Source of the DNA: Occallatibacter sp.
GTDB taxonomy: Bacteria > Acidobacteriota > Terriglobia > Terriglobales > Acidobacteriaceae
DNA: 44,131 nucleotides
NCBI GenBank assembly: GCA_031296215.1
Contig: JARLGE010000333.1
Span: 1 to 44,131, forward strand
Reading direction: 5' to 3'
Part shown: positions 5,534-43,873 of the stretch, one piece after another
Layout: every line of letters starts with the position of its first letter
Numbering within the stretch: position 1 is the first letter of the stretch
Translations under genes and position numbers: made by a program
Notes under the pieces: model-generated
Database searches by the model: none
Seen by the model: the letters and a program-made list of their open reading frames with translations, nothing else
Told to the model about the DNA's origin: nothing

Positions 5534-5608
5534 CCTTGCTCCTTGGCGACTAGAAGGTTATCGCCCGGGGCAGCATTTGCGCAACGTTTTCAGGCCAGAG
5601 CGGATGCC

Positions 5609-6358
5609 TTATTCGCCGGCGCGCACCAGAATGCAGGTTATGTTGTCGCCGCCGCCGGCTTTCTTCGCGGCATCCACCAGGCGCGCGCACAGAGCATCGA
5701 GAGGCAGATCGATGCTGAGCATCGATTCAAGCAGCGCATCGGTCAGCTCCCGGGTCAGCCCGTCGGAGCACAGCAGATACAAGTCCCCTGGCTCGGCTTC
5801 CAGTTCAAAGATATCGGGCGTCACCTTACCCTGTGTGCCGAGCGCGCGGGTGATCACGTTTCTGAGCGGCGAACGCAGGGCCTCGGAACGCGTCATGCGG
5901 CCCATTCGCACCTGCTCTTCCACCAGCGAGTGGTCCTGGGTAATCTGTTCCAGGCGGCGGTAGCGCAGCCGGTAGCAGCGGCTGTCGCCGATGTTGACCA
6001 CCCAGACGCGGCGCTCTTCCACCAGCAGGCCCACCAGCGTCGTGCCCATGCCGTTGAGCTTGTGGTTACGCTGGGAGCGGGAGAAGATGGCCTCGTTGGC
6101 CATGCCGATGGCCTCCGCGGCCAGCATCGGCATCGCCACCGCCTCCCCGTCGTCCGCAGCGCGCCGACCCAGCAGCCGCAGCAGCTCGTCCACCGCCAGC
6201 GAGCTGGCAATCTCCCCGGCAGCAGCGCCTCCCATGCCGTCACAGACCAGGTAGACCCCCTCCTCGACCGAGAAGCCGAAGGCATCCTCGTTGGACGGGC
6301 GCTTGCGGCCGCGGTCGGTGACCGCCGCAGCCGTGTAGTGGAGGACGGCCGTGGACAA
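5609..6358 (-). CDS. PP2C-family Ser/Thr protein phosphatase (Stp-like)
   Basis: The protein is 249 aa, a single minimal PP2C domain with no extra regions. Metal-binding motifs are complete: RPSNED (20-25), D40-G41 in LVCDGMGG, MGTT (104-107), GDSR (124-127), SDG (198-200) and GGDN (236-239). Bacterial relatives remove phosphate from targets of Hanks-type kinases, but no kinase gene is in this window. The start is TTG at 6358 with GGGAG eight bases before it; no in-frame ATG occurs before the DGMGG motif. The next gene upstream on the same strand, 63 bp away, encodes a secreted propeller-like protein and may be co-transcribed. Confidence 0.9.
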   Translation of the reverse strand: MSTAVLHYTAAAVTDRGRKRPSNEDAFGFSVEEGVYLVCDGMGGAAAGEIASSLAVDELLRLLGRRAADDGEAVAMPMLAAEAIGMANEAIFSRSQRNHKLNGMGTTLVGLLVEERRVWVVNIGDSRCYRLRYRRLEQITQDHSLVEEQVRMGRMTRSEALRSPLRNVITRALGTQGKVTPDIFELEAEPGDLYLLCSDGLTRELTDALLESMLSIDLPLDALCARLVDAAKKAGGGDNITCILVRAGE

Positions 6359-6421
6359 GAAAAAATCTCCCGTCGCCCAGTGTACACGGGTCTGTGCCTG
6401 CCGAGCTCGGAACGCTGCCGC

Positions 6422-7771
6422 TCAGTGACCCGCCAGCGATTTGGGGTTGTCTGCCAGCGCCGGAGGCTCGGGCAGGTCGAAGACCTCGATGGCCCCGGCA
6501 TTGATTACGGCCACGCGCTGCGCGGAGGGGGAGATGGCTACATTGCCGCCCGCATCGAGCGCGGGGCTGGCGGATGTCTCCAGCGCCACCTTGCCGCTGG
6601 ACGCGTCGAAGACCCGCACCAGCTGGCCTTTGATGTCCTCGGCGTCCAGGGGCGAATAGGCGTTGATGGCGTGGTTGACGGCCAGCGTTTCCCGCGCCAG
6701 CCGCGAGCCATCCGGCGCCATCACCAGCAGCGGCCAGATCGCCTGAGGCGAGCTGGGGTCCTCCCAGAGCCGGCGCCCATCGGTGGTCATGGCCACCAGT
6801 TTGTGCGCGCCCCCGCCGCCGTCGCAGGCGGTCACCAACAGCTCGCGCTGCGAGATAAAGTCGAAGGTCGGCGAGCAGGTCGAGTTAACCCGCCCCACCA
6901 CAGTGCTGCCGCCACTGAAGTAGTGCAGGTTCAGCAGCCACTGCTCGCCATTTGCGCGCAGGCTTTCCAGGTACCCATCCGCGTTGATGGGCAAATGGAC
7001 AGACAAGCGCACGCGGCTGACCAGCATCACCTCGCCGGATTTCCTGCGCAAGATGCGCACCACCAAATCGGGCACGCCGGGATTCTGTCCGTCCACCGTC
7101 ATGCTGGCCTGGGCGGTGGGCGGGCTGGGCACGTCGCCGGGCTTGGCCTCGGCTGCGGCGGGCTCCTGTGAGTTGGTCACCAGATACTGCTGCGACGGGT
7201 CCATCTCCAACCATTCCACCGGCCCCGGGAAATGCAGAAACGGCTTCAGGCTGAGCGTGGCGTCGCCCTGCTGAAGGCCGTCCTTGTCCCGCAGCAGAAA
7301 GTGGCCGTCCTTGAGCATCCACAGGTAGCGCACCCGGTCGTGCACCGTCCAAAGGGCCTCGGCAGTCACCGTTCCAGCAGGCAGCGCCAGCACCACGGCG
7401 CGAATCTGGCGCGCGTCGTTCCACTCGCTGTCCCCACCCTCGCGGTGTATCAGCCCGGGCACGCGAAACGTGAATAACAGACGGTTTTCGTCGAGAAAAT
7501 CCAGCGAAGCCATGCTGTTCCGCTGCCCCAGGTAAATGGCGCCGGGGGCGGAAAAGCCAAGCGCCTCCACGGGAATCCGGAGCGCCGGAGGCTCCGAGGG
7601 CTTGTCGGGAAGCCGGTCCGGCAACGGGCGCTCCTTGCCTGCGTGAGGCTGATTCTGGGGGAACGAGCTGCTGCCCTGCGCCTGCCCAGGCGGCACAGCG
7701 AATGTGGACAGGCCCGCCAGGACCAGCCAGAGACCCGCTTGTTCCGCCACAGCTCGCAGCCGCTTCATCAT
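6422..7771 (-). CDS. Secreted hypothetical protein, probably beta-propeller
   Basis: The protein is 449 aa. A signal peptide is visible (basic MMKRLR, hydrophobic GLWLVLAGLSTFAV, cleavage near AQG). The mature part has repeated short beta-type segments ending in polar turns, for example LLFTFRVPG, RYLWMLKDGHFLLRD and QYLVTNSQEP near the N-terminal half and LRVFDASSGKVALETS near the end. These resemble WD40/PQQ-like blades, but I cannot define blade number. A proline- and charge-rich linker follows the signal. No catalytic motif is recognised. The Shine-Dalgarno sequence is weak, so the second adjacent Met could be the start. Confidence 0.6.
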   Translation of the reverse strand: MMKRLRAVAEQAGLWLVLAGLSTFAVPPGQAQGSSSFPQNQPHAGKERPLPDRLPDKPSEPPALRIPVEALGFSAPGAIYLGQRNSMASLDFLDENRLLFTFRVPGLIHREGGDSEWNDARQIRAVVLALPAGTVTAEALWTVHDRVRYLWMLKDGHFLLRDKDGLQQGDATLSLKPFLHFPGPVEWLEMDPSQQYLVTNSQEPAAAEAKPGDVPSPPTAQASMTVDGQNPGVPDLVVRILRRKSGEVMLVSRVRLSVHLPINADGYLESLRANGEQWLLNLHYFSGGSTVVGRVNSTCSPTFDFISQRELLVTACDGGGGAHKLVAMTTDGRRLWEDPSSPQAIWPLLVMAPDGSRLARETLAVNHAINAYSPLDAEDIKGQLVRVFDASSGKVALETSASPALDAGGNVAISPSAQRVAVINAGAIEVFDLPEPPALADNPKSLAGH

Positions 7772-36080: not shown

Positions 36081-36133
36081 CCGGTGGGTTGGTGGACCGA
36101 TCGTGATGGCTGGCGAGTTGGGGTCTGTGCTTT

Positions 36134-36159
36134 CCCAGGTCTCAAAATCGGGACCTGGG
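36134..36159. repeat. Dispersed palindrome (copy 1)
   Basis: CCCAGGTC (36134-36141) and GACCTGGG (36152-36159) form an 8-bp stem, followed by the shared tail GGCACCCG. The same unit, with flanking GTGCTTTC, recurs three times at 43.4-43.87 kb. Here it lies between convergent genes and may help end transcription. Confidence 0.65.
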
Positions 36160-36194
36160 GCACCCGCAAGTTAGCGAAAGGCGCCTTGGTGCGC

Positions 36195-38652: not shown

Positions 38653-39396
38653 GTGGCGCGGGGCGAGCGGGTGGTGCTGCACGATGTGAACCTGACCATC
38701 CGCACCGGCGAGCACGTGGCCATCATGGGGCCGAACGGCTGCGGGAAATCGACGCTGATCATGGCCATGAGCTGCCAGGTCTATCCCATGGTGAAGCCGG
38801 GGATGGTGGTGCGGATCTTTGGGCGCGAGCGCTGGGACCTGACGCGGCTCAGGCTGCACTTCGGCGTGGTGGGCGCGGAGCTTCCCGGCGAGCGGACGGC
38901 GGTGACCAACGGGCTGGACGCGGTGACGGCGGGGTTTTTCTCGGCGTCCACGCTGTGGCCCAACCTGCACGTGACGCCGGAGATGCGGGAGCGCTCGTGG
39001 GAGGCGCTGGAGCGGATGGAGGCCAAGCACCTGGCCGGGCAGTTGGTGGGCGAAATGTCGGCCGGAGAAAAGCGGCGCATTATGATTGCGCGGGCGCTGG
39101 TGCACAGGCCCAAGCAGTTGCTGCTGGACGAGCCGTCGAACGCGCTGGACCTGGCGGCACAGCGCGAGTTGCGCGAGACGCTGCGGCGGCTGGCGCAGGA
39201 GGGCACGGGACTCGTTTTGGTCACGCATCACCTGGGAGACATTCTGCCGGAGATTGAGCGCGTGATTCTGATGCGCGGCGGGCGGATTGTGGGCGATGGG
39301 CCGCGCGCGGATCTGCTGACCGAACTGAGGCTGAGCGAACTGTTCGGCGCGCCGGTGCGAATGGGGCGCGATGAAGAGTGGCTGCATAGTTGGTGA
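38653..39396 (+). CDS. ABC transporter ATP-binding protein
   Basis: The protein is 247 aa from the first standard start, GTG at 38653. It has Walker A GPNGCGKST, signature MSAGEKRR, Walker B LLLDEP and the switch H in LVTHH. It resembles stand-alone ATPases of the ModF/YlmA type; no permease gene is adjacent. The GTG start removes the first beta strand (FLELRSVNV) that ABC domains normally have, while the frame stays open upstream to 38563. A start near 38608 would restore it. The gene may be co-transcribed with the diguanylate cyclase. Confidence 0.82.
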   Translation: MARGERVVLHDVNLTIRTGEHVAIMGPNGCGKSTLIMAMSCQVYPMVKPGMVVRIFGRERWDLTRLRLHFGVVGAELPGERTAVTNGLDAVTAGFFSASTLWPNLHVTPEMRERSWEALERMEAKHLAGQLVGEMSAGEKRRIMIARALVHRPKQLLLDEPSNALDLAAQRELRETLRRLAQEGTGLVLVTHHLGDILPEIERVILMRGGRIVGDGPRADLLTELRLSELFGAPVRMGRDEEWLHSW

Positions 39397-39402
39397 CGAA
39401 AG

Positions 39403-39430
39403 ACAGTTCACAGTTCACAGTTTTCAGTTG
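39403..39430. repeat. Short CAGTT-type tandem repeats
   Basis: ACAGTTC occurs twice in succession, followed by ACAGTTTTCAGTTG, in the gap between the ABC ATPase and the convergent radical SAM gene. No other signal is seen there. Confidence 0.4.
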
Positions 39431-39506
39431 GGTGTGGAGCCCGATTCAGGCAGCGCATCCTCAGAGCGACTGTTCGAAGCCCCATCCGCCGGCTTCTTGA
39501 AAGACA

Positions 39507-41210
39507 TTACGCCGCGCCCACCCCCGCCGCCTCGCGGTCCCCTTCGTAAAAGGTCCAGGATTTGTCGAAACCGCCGACGGGCCCCGGCAGGGGGCTGTCA
39601 TCCTGATGGACCCAGTGGTAGTACTGTCCAAGCTCGTTGGTGATCTGCGTTTCTTCACGCTTCTCGTGGGCTGTAAGTCTTTCCAAGTAGCCCCGTTCGC
39701 GTTGCAGCGTGGCCAGGGGGGTTGCTTCGAGATAGTCGACCGCGCAACGAAGCGTGTAGCAAGCAACCTTGTTGCACACCGACGTGAGGTAGCGCAGGTA
39801 AGCCCGCTGCGCTTCCGACACGCGGTTGCGCCGTGGCAGCCGCAAGCCGGCCTCGAAGTTCAACCCCCTGAACATATGGCAAAGTCCCTGGTTGGTGAAA
39901 TTTCTTTCGTAGAAGGTCGCAATCATCCACTCGTAGAAGATATCCAGCTTCGGGTCGAGGAACTTGTAGTCCGGTTCGAACGCGGTTCCCAGCATGCGGC
40001 CCTCCGCCTCGAGCCTGCGCTTGATCGGAGTGCCGGCGTAGGGGAGCATGCGGCAGAAGGGCGCCACCGTCCAGCCGTCGCCGATGAACTCTTCAAGGAA
40101 CGCGATGTTGTTGCGAATCCGGCTGAAGGTCGAATAGGGCTCGACCATCATGAATCCGAAGTCAAACGAGAGGCCGAGTTTTTTCAAGATCCGGCCGGCG
40201 CGCAAGTGGGCCTCGGGCTTCATGCGCTTGTGCATGTCGGCCAGGCCATCTTCATCGCCCGACTCGACGCCCATGTAGACGTGGGTCAGGCCTCCGGCCA
40301 TGAGCCGGCGCAGGATATCCTCGTCAATCTCGTCCGAGCGGCAACTGATTTTGAAGGCCAGCTCTCCGGCGAAGCCCGCGGCCGCAATGTGATCGGCGAT
40401 CTCCATGGCCCAGAGCTTGGCATTTTTTCCGCCGGCAAGGAAATCGTCATCCTGAAACAAGAAGATGGGGACCTTGCGGTTGACGTGCAGGTCGAGCATC
40501 TCGTCGGCTACCGCGCGCGGGCTGCGCAAGCGGCGCAACGGCCCTCCCTGGCTCTCGTAGAAGGGCCGGATGCTACAGAAGGAGCAATCCCACGGACATC
40601 CGCGGCTGCCCAGGACCGAGGCAGTGGGCATGGGGTGGCTCTCGTAGTCGATCGAGCGCCGATCGGGCGGGGGCAGGATGTCCAGGTCTTCCACCACCTT
40701 TGCCAGCGGCGCAACCACGATCTGTCCCTCGTCTGAACGAAACGCGATGCCGGGCAGCGTGCGCCAGTCCGCCCCCGCGCTGAGGCAATGGAGTATTTTA
40801 ACGAGCGTCATCTCGCCATCGAAGCGCACCACGGAATCAAGGCCTGGGGTAGAGCCAAGGATCTCGGCCGGCTCAAAGCTTGCATAATGGCCGCCCATGG
40901 TAAAGTGGCCGGTCACACCTCCATCGCGGAGCGCCTTGATGACGCGCCCGAAGTCCGGCGCCATGTATTGAAAGATCAGCGAGAAGCCAACCACATCCGG
41001 TTTCTCGTGGCGGATGCGGCGGAGAATAATCTCCGGGTCGGCGCCGTAGGTCATGATGGAGGCCTCATGCCCGGATGCGTTCACCGCCGACATAAGATAA
41101 CGCAAGCCGAGGTTGTCCTGGTCTTGAAAACCAAGGAGAAGCACCTTCTGCGGCCGGTCGTTCCCGCCGATGACCGGTATTGCAATGGGATCGTTTGAGA
41201 GGATCTGCAT
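39507..41210 (-). CDS. B12-binding radical SAM enzyme, candidate RiPP maturase
   Basis: The protein is 567 aa. Residues about 21-150 form a cobalamin-binding-like Rossmann domain (KVLLLGFQDQDNLGLRYL, VVGFSLIFQYMAP). The radical SAM core starts at about 195, with the cluster motif C205-x3-C209-x2-C212 (GCPWDCSFC) that binds the [4Fe-4S]/SAM pair. Residues about 430-567 form an uncharacterised C-terminal region with several cysteines (SVCNKVACYTLRC). Enzymes of this type add methyl groups to unreactive carbons or make rings, some on peptides. GGAAGG lies 11 bases before the ATG. A repetitive small protein is encoded 178 bp upstream on the same strand. No PqqD-type leader-binding domain is evident. 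Confidence 0.85.
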   Translation of the reverse strand: MQILSNDPIAIPVIGGNDRPQKVLLLGFQDQDNLGLRYLMSAVNASGHEASIMTYGADPEIILRRIRHEKPDVVGFSLIFQYMAPDFGRVIKALRDGGVTGHFTMGGHYASFEPAEILGSTPGLDSVVRFDGEMTLVKILHCLSAGADWRTLPGIAFRSDEGQIVVAPLAKVVEDLDILPPPDRRSIDYESHPMPTASVLGSRGCPWDCSFCSIRPFYESQGGPLRRLRSPRAVADEMLDLHVNRKVPIFLFQDDDFLAGGKNAKLWAMEIADHIAAAGFAGELAFKISCRSDEIDEDILRRLMAGGLTHVYMGVESGDEDGLADMHKRMKPEAHLRAGRILKKLGLSFDFGFMMVEPYSTFSRIRNNIAFLEEFIGDGWTVAPFCRMLPYAGTPIKRRLEAEGRMLGTAFEPDYKFLDPKLDIFYEWMIATFYERNFTNQGLCHMFRGLNFEAGLRLPRRNRVSEAQRAYLRYLTSVCNKVACYTLRCAVDYLEATPLATLQRERGYLERLTAHEKREETQITNELGQYYHWVHQDDSPLPGPVGGFDKSWTFYEGDREAAGVGAA

Positions 41211-41388
41211 GCGCGCACCATCCTTCCGAGTAGACAGGTTTTCCGTAGGGGCCCCGCGACGTTCGAATGCGCAGAGCCAGGGGAAGCTTGAGCAGTGAAG
41301 TACATGCGCAGCACCGCCGGGCAGCGAAGAGACGACGCGCTGCTATAAGGCCGGCGGCGCAGGTTCTTACAGCGACCTTGCCTATGTG

Positions 41389-41910
41389 CTAACTCTTCTC
41401 GTTCAGCTTTGCCAATTGCGCCGTTACTTGTTCTTCGATGGAAGCAAGACGGGCCTTTTGGGCATTGATCGCATGAAGCGTGCTCTCCAGTTGATCCGCG
41501 GGAAGCCGGGTGTAGTCGATAGGAGCTGGATCGCCAATCGGCCAATGGATTGGGGGCCGATAGCCGCCTCCTCCGTAAATCGGCCACGGCCCGGGATCGG
41601 CATAAATGCGGCTGTAGTCGATGGGGGCCGGATCGCCAATCGGCCCACGAACCGGCGGCCGGTAACCGCCTCCTCCGTAAATCGGCCACGGCCCGGGATC
41701 GGCGTAAATGCGGCTGTAGTCGATGGGGGCTGGGTCGCCTATCGGCCAATGGACTGGGGGCCGATAACCGCCCCATCCGCCACCCCACCACGGTGGCGCC
41801 GGGGGATCGGCATAAACCGGGATGTGGGGGGCAGCCGATGGCTGCGCATGGGCGGCCTCTAAACGAGCAACGCGGGCCTCGAGCGCTTTGACGGCATCAT
41901 TTTCGGTCAT
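41389..41910 (-). CDS. Repetitive Pro/Tyr/Trp protein, candidate multi-core RiPP precursor
   Basis: The protein is 173 aa and matches no family I recognise. Residues 1-22 are a charged helix (heptad-like VKALEARVARLEAAHA) and 139-173 a second helix. Between them lie 34-residue repeats starting at Y49, Y83 and Y117, with consensus YRPPxHWPIGDPAPIDYSR, then IYADPGPWPIYGGGG. A degenerate half-unit precedes them (PVYADPPAPPWWGGG). It has no signal peptide. GGAGGGAGG stands just before the ATG and a TTGACA promoter lies upstream, so it should be well expressed. The B12 radical SAM gene follows on the same strand. The layout of leader-like helix, repeated core-like units and adjacent radical enzyme suggests a peptide substrate. 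Alternatively, it is a structural low-complexity protein. Confidence 0.6.
   Translation of the reverse strand: MTENDAVKALEARVARLEAAHAQPSAAPHIPVYADPPAPPWWGGGWGGYRPPVHWPIGDPAPIDYSRIYADPGPWPIYGGGGYRPPVRGPIGDPAPIDYSRIYADPGPWPIYGGGGYRPPIHWPIGDPAPIDYTRLPADQLESTLHAINAQKARLASIEEQVTAQLAKLNEKS
41506..41766 (-). repeat. 102-bp tandem coding repeats
   Basis: Units at 41766-41665 and 41664-41563, plus a partial unit 41562-41506, encode the 34-residue repeats. Copies are nearly identical at the DNA level, including silent positions, which indicates recent duplication or gene conversion. Confidence 0.85.
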
Positions 41911-41948
41911 ATTTCCTCCCTCCGATTGATTGGAAAAACAGATTTGCC

Positions 41949-41977
41949 ATGTTTTCACTGAACTAACGCAGTGTCAA
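41949..41977 (-). promoter_or_regulatory. Predicted sigma-70 type promoter of the repeat protein gene
   Basis: On the minus strand a perfect -35 box TTGACA (41977-41972) is followed after 17 bases by AAACAT (41954-41949), a weak -10 box that keeps the key A and T. Transcription would begin about 30 bases before the ATG at 41910. Confidence 0.45.
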
Positions 41978-42123
41978 GAGCAAAACTAGAGGCAAGAGGG
42001 GAGAAGGAAAATACAACGGGTAAGCGGTTGAAAAAACTGAAAATGACGATGGTAAGTTGCGTGGAAGCGCTACCCCGCGCAAGCGCATCGGCGGCGCGGC
42101 AAGCTGCCGGCCTGGCGCGCGAG

Positions 42124-42432
42124 TCAGCCTTTTGCGCGGGAGGCGACCAGGCGCATGGGATGGATTTCAAAGCGGTTGAGGCCTTCGATAACGGAGGGGT
42201 CGTTGTCGCCGAAGCGGCGGGCCTCGGCTTCGTTTTCGACTGCGAGGATTCCCAGGCCGAACGCCCCGCTGGGCGCGAGCACTGGGCCGTAGGCGAGGAT
42301 GCGGCCGGCGGCAAAGTGCTCCTCCCAATAGACACTGTGCAGTTGCATCAGGGCAGCTTCCTCGGGCGTGATGTCGGCGGGGAAGGTTGGGCGCGGGGGA
42401 ATCAGCTTGAAGAAGAAGTATTGCTTTTCCAT
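42124..42432 (-). CDS. YciI-family protein
   Basis: The protein is 102 aa with a dimeric ferredoxin-like alpha/beta fold. The family pattern is clear: YFFFKLIPPRP at the start, MQLHSVYWEEHFAAGRILAYGPV in the middle (the conserved His is in LHSVYWEEH), GILAVENEAEARRFGDNDPSV and the final IHPMRL strand. The biochemical role of most members is unknown. It is divergent from the Tat-exported reductase across 73 bp. No clear Shine-Dalgarno sequence is seen. Confidence 0.85.
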   Translation of the reverse strand: MEKQYFFFKLIPPRPTFPADITPEEAALMQLHSVYWEEHFAAGRILAYGPVLAPSGAFGLGILAVENEAEARRFGDNDPSVIEGLNRFEIHPMRLVASRAKG

Positions 42433-42505
42433 GGGTAGATATCTTACATGGTTGTGTTACCATCCGGGCAATTGGCTTCCCCATAGGCCAACGCGGAGGT
42501 AAACC

Positions 42506-43384: not shown

Positions 43385-43410
43385 GGGACTGTCTCCGAAC
43401 TTTGTGCTAT

Positions 43411-43436
43411 CCCAGGTCTCAAAATCGAGACCTGGG
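43411..43436. repeat. Dispersed palindrome (copy 2)
   Basis: CCCAGGTCTC (43411-43420) and GAGACCTGGG (43427-43436) form a perfect 10-bp stem with a six-base loop, followed by GGCACCCGG. It sits 27 bp after the reductase stop and may end its transcript. Confidence 0.7.
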
Positions 43437-43524
43437 GCACCCGGCAAGTCAGCGGGTCAGCGAGTCAGCAGGAGGGCCCGCTTGACGCGGCGGGCACCTT
43501 CCAAGTACTTTGTGCTTACACGGG

Positions 43525-43734: not shown

Positions 43735-43748
43735 GTTGTCTTTGGGGG

Positions 43749-43873
43749 CCATGGCGAGCTGAGGGTTGTGTGTTCCCAGGTCCCCAAAGGCGAGGGACCT
43801 GGGGCACCCGGCCATGGCGAGTTGAGGGTTGTGCTTTCCCAGGTCCCCAAAGGCGAGGGACCTGGGGCACCCG
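43749..43873. repeat. Tandem 63-bp repeat with palindromes (copies 3 and 4)
   Basis: Two near-identical 63-bp units begin CCATGGCGAG at 43749 and 43812. Each holds a stem CCCAGGTCCC/GGGACCTGGG (43775-43784 with 43794-43803, and 43838-43847 with 43857-43866) and ends GGCACCCG. They lie just before ruvC and belong to the same family as the copies at 36134 and 43411. Confidence 0.8.

Follow-up and report, generated by a model that had tools for sequence, protein, structure and literature searches.

What does a small repeat protein do when its gene stands directly ahead of that of a radical enzyme? The question is raised by two genes on the minus strand of contig JARLGE010000333.1 of Occallatibacter sp., the whole of which (44,131 bases, from draft genome G000, 88% complete) was analysed and is called the window here. 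The first gene encodes a protein of 173 aa and the second a vitamin B12-binding radical S-adenosylmethionine (SAM) enzyme. Comparable pairs of genes occur across many bacteria and in some archaea; they suggest that enzyme and small protein form an as yet undescribed partnership of enzyme and substrate, by which proteins or peptides are chemically modified. We consider it probable that the pair is a mobile two-gene cassette, whose enzyme docks on the C-terminal tail of the small protein and modifies an Asp-Pro motif, most likely by C-methylation. The original prediction had presented the locus as a candidate new system for a ribosomally synthesized and post-translationally modified peptide (RiPP), with the repeats as peptide cores. 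It proved right in kind, as a precursor-like protein does stand beside its own B12 radical SAM enzyme, outside the family libraries searched; a peptide that is cut and exported lacks support.

The small gene lies on the same strand as the enzyme gene and directly upstream of it, at a distance of 178 nt, as first described. The three 34-residue repeats noticed in its product correspond to three direct repeats in the DNA. The features of the small protein are as follows.

41389 to 41910, minus strand: small repeat protein of 173 aa, ATG at 41910, the proposed substrate (from the open reading frame (ORF), the repeats and the relatives)
41839 to 41910, minus strand: N-terminal coiled-coil-like segment MTENDAVKALEARVARLEAAHAQP (from sequence; similar N-termini in L022-L027)
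41493 to 41798, minus strand: three 102-nt (34-aa) direct repeats (41493-41594, 41595-41696 and 41697-41798)
41725 to 41736, minus strand: DPAP motif 1
41689 to 41700, minus strand: DPGP motif 2
41623 to 41634, minus strand: DPAP motif 3
41587 to 41598, minus strand: DPGP motif 4
41521 to 41532, minus strand: DPAP motif 5, 47 residues before the C-terminus, with D127-P128 as the column common to relatives
41392 to 41508, minus strand: C-terminal helix-like tail, the proposed docking element (from composition and fixed distance)

Identity to the repeat copy at 41493-41594 is 82% for 41595-41696 and 76% for 41697-41798. Between units 2 and 3 of the protein there are eight synonymous and three non-synonymous codon differences. 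In an ungapped comparison, in which the N-terminal part of unit 1 is out of register, this unit differs from units 2 and 3 by 7 and 5 synonymous and by 14 and 13 non-synonymous codons, so near-identity is confined to the two later units. Five DPxP motifs are intact (GDPAP three times, ADPGP twice) and a degenerate one, ADPPAP, is also present. The helical segments flanking the repeats were assessed from composition only. Against Pfam and NCBIfam the protein gave only matches below cut-off (APC_15aa, 16.1 of 19.4 bits; SE1832_fam, 13 of 45 bits), and a search of 148 other related genomes gave nothing for it at E ≤ 0.001.

The enzyme was correctly recognized as a B12-binding radical SAM protein with an intact CxxxCxxC motif, which reads CPWDCSFC, and both expected domains are found by Pfam.

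39507 to 41210, minus strand: B12-binding radical SAM enzyme, 567 aa
40794 to 41123, minus strand: B12-binding domain, residues 30-139 (Pfam PF02310, 2.3e-18, above gathering)
40143 to 40607, minus strand: radical SAM domain, residues 202-356 (Pfam PF04055, 1.2e-18, above gathering)
40575 to 40598, minus strand: CPWDCSFC cluster motif, with C205, C209 and C212 invariant in 68 aligned rows
39606 to 39953, minus strand: all-helical C-terminal domain, residues 420-535, the proposed docking partner (AlphaFold2 model)

The AlphaFold2 model, built from 68 aligned rows, has a mean predicted local distance difference test score (pLDDT) of 92.1; no winged-helix RRE fused to the enzyme was seen in it, nor any folded part beyond residues 420-535. 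Its nearest solved folds in Foldseek are OxsB (template modelling score 0.67 by query length), TsrM, CysS, MgmA, TokK and AprD4. The CxxxCxxC motif, the order of the domains, B12-binding before radical SAM, and the matching fold place the enzyme in the B12-binding radical SAM superfamily. Family scans covered seven enzymes of the clade: for the window enzyme the nearest NCBIfam families are HpnR, BchE, HpnJ, ApyD and PhpK, all far under their cut-offs, and the six relatives behaved like it.

The 148 related genomes contain three proteins related to the window enzyme at 40-45% identity (E <1e-108), and the next match has an E-value of 1.9e-25. In named genomes, 101 relatives were confirmed by a profile scan; the 80 loci used from these show up to 60% identity and belong, by record label, to 13 named phyla of bacteria and 5 of archaea, with no phylum label on two bacterial records. 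Cultured carriers include Litoreibacter roseus, Limobrevibacterium gyesilva and Acidobacteriaceae KBS 83 and KBS 146. The upstream protein was compared across 83 loci (the window, L022-L101, L104 and L105). L003, L004, L005 and L103 were dropped as copies of L043, L075, L073 and L058, respectively, and L106-L108 (166-217 bits), with no DPxP upstream, were left out as an outgroup. The set includes near relatives (L040/L089; the Nitrospira loci L029-L032), so it does not represent 83 independent events.

When the upstream ORF is defined by a single rule (45 aa or longer, with its end no more than 400 nt before the conserved enzyme start), DPxP occurs in 52 of the 83 enzyme loci versus 8 of 334 other genes of those loci, the latter called by a greedy script that includes false genes; it appears in 2.8% of 1660 base shuffles. 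When the nearest upstream ORF was chosen without regard to the motif, which serves to reduce circularity, 26 of 36 loci with an upstream G+C content below 52% had DP and 21 had DPxP. With frames read by eye, a same-strand protein immediately upstream was assigned in 80 of the 83 loci, and 73 of these proteins bear DP; the upstream ORFs of L104, L055 and L072 were assigned from reading frames, L081 was kept out of the motif table, and the DP counted in L033, L044, L049 and L101 is probably not the motif itself. Synonymous changes exceed non-synonymous ones in 8 of 11 close pairs, three of which share L029 (the exceptions being L056/L075, L067/L082 and L048/L070), so most of the upstream ORFs are apparently genuine coding sequences. 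No Pfam or NCBIfam family was found for 62 upstream proteins, five families being matched by single members at E 0.001-0.04.

The unit that the relatives have in common is DPxP, in one to six copies, and not the 34-aa repeat that had been taken for the core, which is local to the window. The pair is wider than could be seen from this locus, the repeat being, as judged from the sequences, a locally elaborated form of a motif common to many phyla. Three layouts are found. The window type (seven members) has an N-terminal coiled-coil-like stretch, two to six DPxP motifs and a C-terminal tail; a further member with five motifs, L129 of genome G317, lies at a contig edge, where its enzyme would fall off the contig. 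The second layout comprises short proteins, mostly of 66-110 aa, in which a single motif is found (for example WWWDPVPWW or WDPIGPP), and also a GPVADPAP type with one to three motifs, for which a profile search of PDB gave nothing better than E 0.17. The third, found in one enzyme clade, is a protein of 283-410 aa with GDPSPED or a variant in its C-terminal part (model pLDDT 37.3 in the L028 group). In an alignment of 62 upstream proteins, many of them chosen by their DP motif, D and P alone pass 90%; in the single-motif set they are, besides the start Met, the sole invariant columns.

The position of the motif is also constant. From the last D to the C-terminus there are 50.0 ± 5.3 residues in 64 small proteins, and the distance is 40-60 residues in 58 of them; shuffling of residues gave this placement in 21% on average and 50% at most. 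The tails of the 58 proteins have 4.0% Pro plus Gly, versus 21.4% around the motif, and 48 tails have no Pro.

By sequence, enzyme and upstream protein are inherited together. Mapped on the enzyme tree (68 rows), the substrate layout changes 23 times, versus 40.8 in shuffles, none of 200 being as low, and the big-protein layout requires two changes. The seven window-type rows group together with a Shimodaira-Hasegawa-like approximate likelihood ratio (SH-aLRT) value of 91, which is under the starred level for this quick method. Homologues of the repeat protein had been expected to accompany the enzyme, and they do: three substrate profiles found their match at the enzyme in 8 of 8, 19 of 19 and 8 of 9 carrier genomes (35 of 36 in total; coordinates compared with the loci by hand). 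Apart from the contig-edge L129, no clear orphan substrate was found among the few first-look candidates scored in each of 396 Acidobacteriota genomes.

Two loci differ in the state of the pair. On a Heimdallarchaeota contig (L076), a second DPPPD protein lies close to the enzyme (2404-2799) and runs in frame into what we take to be a metallo-beta-lactamase-like stretch. In Sulfitobacter sediminilitoris (L097, about 5545-7111) the enzyme, a 303-aa frame, and the upstream protein both look frame-broken, perhaps a cassette decaying as a unit; it lies between genes that are presumably pyrH-like (upstream) and frr-like (downstream).

These observations can be joined in a mechanism. The small protein would be the substrate of the adjoining enzyme, and by position and conservation its gene resembles the dedicated ribosomal precursor gene that a RiPP system has beside the modifying enzyme, although the substrate role is one that we infer. 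Its C-terminal helix-like tail, the last 40 residues or so, would dock on the enzyme, where the all-helical C-terminal domain is its probable partner, and would bring Asp-Pro-x-Pro into the B12/radical SAM active site. The enzyme would then modify a carbon at or beside the motif, most likely by C-methylation, with a gain of 14 Da per motif; in the window protein the five intact motifs would be treated in turn. A substrate role is favoured by the number of motifs, which varies (1-6) while there is one enzyme gene, and the fixed distance to the tail speaks for recognition from the C-terminus, through a docking element, and not through an N-terminal leader. That ApyD and PoyC, B12 radical SAM enzymes acting on peptides, methylate unactivated carbons favours C-methylation at or beside Asp-Pro.

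Several observations weigh against this proposal. Plain DP, found by the same rule in 79 of the 83 loci, also occurs in 98 of the 334 control genes and is therefore a weak criterion. The motif is not universal, as seven loci (L080 and six from Bacteroidota) have a short upstream protein without DP, some of these being Pro-rich in places (RPVPRPFP, for example); no upstream candidate is present in L035 and L093, and no clear one in L081. The helical moment of the tails is mildly above that of shuffles (mean z 0.40, above 1 in 13 of 58), so a tail helix is likely only. Substrate profiles gave extra matches in carrier genomes, one at E 0.065 with internal stops and one at E 0.003 in a 507-aa frame, and weak ones elsewhere in the 396 genomes of the phylum, eight at E 0.002-0.009 and two at E 0.004-0.006; because most sit in long frames, all of them were taken as chance. 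Finally, sequence cannot tell the reaction, since PbsB, also a B12 radical SAM enzyme, forms a cross-link (PMC12257519).

In Methanoperedens, whose locus (L093) has no upstream candidate, a 126-aa ORF on the opposite strand (6392-6772, minus) ends in FTNIWADPGPVFGRGFE; it is possibly a displaced substrate, or chance. In the Bacteroidota loci L086, L087, L088, L091, L094, L098 and L100, which mostly have a DP-less short protein, related large proteins immediately precede the pair, presumably TIR-like or membrane/TPR-like. Similar genes, which we take to be sulfotransferase-like, lie directly downstream of the enzyme in L054 (2879-4519) and L081 (7292-8266).

Known B12 radical SAM systems offer parallels to the proposed one. 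The TIGR03975 (rSAM_ocin_1) and PoyC-type C-methylases likewise methylate peptide carbons, acting on precursors with N-terminal leaders; the window enzyme scores 43.2 bits with TIGR03975, a RiPP maturation C-methyltransferase, against a cut-off of 281.85. In the bottromycin system recognition is through a C-terminal follower, not an N-terminal leader, which resembles the proposed docking on the tail; that system has many further enzymes, unlike the window pair, and we know of no DPxP motif in it. It shares with the proposal a role of B12 radical SAM enzymes in methylation of a RiPP, and PoyC methylates Val (PMC5682303). ApyD C-methylates Tyr in a ribosomal peptide to beta-methyltyrosine, and its peptide motif, GYLYD, likewise ends in Asp (PMC11117315). 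It resembles the window enzyme as a B12 radical SAM protein acting on a ribosomal peptide and by a distant sequence similarity of 84.1 bits (cut-off 750 in NF050148; best of the six relatives 133.5). ApyD differs in being described as RRE-containing and in its gene surroundings, which include an MNIO, a P450 and also a methyltransferase (PMC11117315); the window pair consists of two genes. The McrA C-methylase Mmp10 acts, as proposed here, on a protein and not on a cut peptide (PMC8828468), and MgmA, another McrA C-methylase, is the one among the nearest solved folds; the substrate of both is a large enzyme, unlike the small dedicated protein of the window, and with TIGR04014 the window enzyme reaches 48.9 bits against a cut-off of 360.

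A classical RiPP, in which the DPxP units would be cores that are modified, cut out by a protease encoded elsewhere and then exported in the form of small peptides, seems unlikely. The multi-core layout of two to six motifs in the window clade and the dedicated radical SAM enzyme adjoining a precursor-like gene fit it, and related ABC-type proteins, an example of which we take to be C39-like at the N-terminus, form a cluster in 5 of the 83 loci. Their positions change from locus to locus, so that an exporter as partner was rejected and the cluster taken as chance. Apart from the upstream gene, the largest cluster of neighbouring genes covers 9 of the 83 loci. When neighbours of at least 80 aa were compared with one another, no third gene family was common to the clade; no protease or exporter family recurred at a constant position in the 83 loci, a result obtained with neighbours not scanned for protease, exporter or RRE domains and distant genes not searched, so single cases may escape. 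Together with the version of about 300 aa, which has one motif, this argues against a need for cutting and export. In addition, the invariant D and P of the single-motif set are unlike a fast-changing antibiotic core.

It is about equally doubtful that the same substrate undergoes another chemistry, with Asp or Pro of the motif cross-linked to a nearby Trp or Tyr, or another rearrangement. Trp is frequent near the last motif (22% at -3, 21% at -1 and 21% at +5, in 74 sites), and PbsB, a biphenomycin-type enzyme, is alike in acting as a B12 radical SAM protein on a ribosomal peptide, in which it forms a C-C cross-link; it differs in joining ortho-Tyr after MNIO action and in belonging to a larger gene cluster (PMC12257519). 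The peptide examples PoyC and ApyD, by contrast, methylate (PMC5682303; PMC11117315), and aromatic residues occupy no fixed places around the motif, some motifs having none nearby (L027).

A still less favoured alternative is that the small protein serves the enzyme as an accessory or regulatory subunit, the actual substrate being another molecule. Such a role would also fit the fixed tail at the C-terminus and the presence of mostly one copy in each genome, and there are radical SAM enzymes acting on peptides that require an accessory protein (PMC5682303), but one to six copies of one motif would be unexpected in a subunit, as would its replacement by a protein of about 300 aa with the same motif and a tail. 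A lipid or hopanoid enzyme beside an unrelated small gene is hardly credible: although HpnR (hopanoid C-3 methylase, TIGR04367) and BchE (TIGR02026) are the top NCBIfam matches, the enzyme scores 121.5 bits against 650 and 110.6 against 481.35, respectively, the tie to hopanoids that would have undone the original prediction did not appear, 80 of the 83 loci have the upstream gene, and no other family is found in most loci (lipid genes were not searched by name).

The mobility proposed for the cassette draws on its distribution. At E ≤ 1e-60 the enzyme was matched in 7 of the 396 Acidobacteriota genomes, window included, the other six comprising three matches above 570 bits and three at 225-288 bits; its presence is thus sporadic, and absence is weak evidence because only 3, 15 or 8 first-look candidates were scored per genome in the enzyme and substrate searches of this phylum. 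In the tree the window enzyme clusters with those of Planctomycetota, Pyrinomonadaceae, alphaproteobacteria and an FCB-group bacterium, apart from the enzymes of its congeners, which points to horizontal transfer. Carriage by phages was rejected, since none of 41 pattern stretches in viral contigs encodes a relative and the best matches in BFVD are radical SAM folds of a general kind. Plasmid cargo was likewise discarded: the one match at E ≤ 1e-40, from Sinorhizobium (29% identity), has no small gene upstream and falls outside the clade; it is accompanied by what we take to be another large radical-SAM-like gene. A defence system was also rejected, PADLOC giving nothing for three small proteins and one weak match for the enzyme (PDC-M51A, 26.7 bits).

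In the window the pair is flanked by an ABC ATPase gene and a YCII-domain gene, the latter with relatives at 41-50% identity in 11 other genomes of 79. The strong Shine-Dalgarno sequence reported earlier is present. Of the promoter-like element only the -35-like hexamer stands, as no sigma-70-like site was found on either strand in a scan of 39350-42450, and the promoter is weak as far as sequence tells. The same scan found no terminator-like site between the two genes, and a riboswitch was discarded for lack of an Rfam match within the window.

41911 to 41923, minus strand: Shine-Dalgarno sequence GGAGGGAGG(AAAT), preceding the ATG of the small protein
41972 to 41977, minus strand: TTGACA, -35-like, without a good -10 after it (sequence and promoter scan)

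A palindromic element, TCCCAGGTC..GACCTGGGGCACCC, presumably REP-like, is present in four interspersed copies (36126-36166, 43403-43443, 43747-43809 and 43810-43872).

No description of this gene pair was found in the open literature, which leaves out most subscription papers and is thus weak evidence of novelty, and the parts consulted of a 2025 review of cobalamin-binding domains (PMC13331322) do not describe it. The lack of a family for the pair in NCBIfam of June 2026 adds to this evidence. Tentatively, the pair may represent a widespread, unnamed modification system of bacteria and archaea, including Asgard-type ones, in which a two-gene cassette would modify Asp-Pro in a new, carbon-centred way, the motif standing at a constant spacing from a recognition helix at the C-terminus; the product would be a lasting modified protein and not a cut antibiotic. 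If true, this would provide the substrate motif and the docking element for a clade of B12 radical SAM enzymes, so far unassigned, that is found in many phyla, in a pair that is minimal, with two genes, and an enzyme clade that accepts one to six motifs in otherwise dissimilar proteins would be valuable for modifying peptides at C-H bonds.

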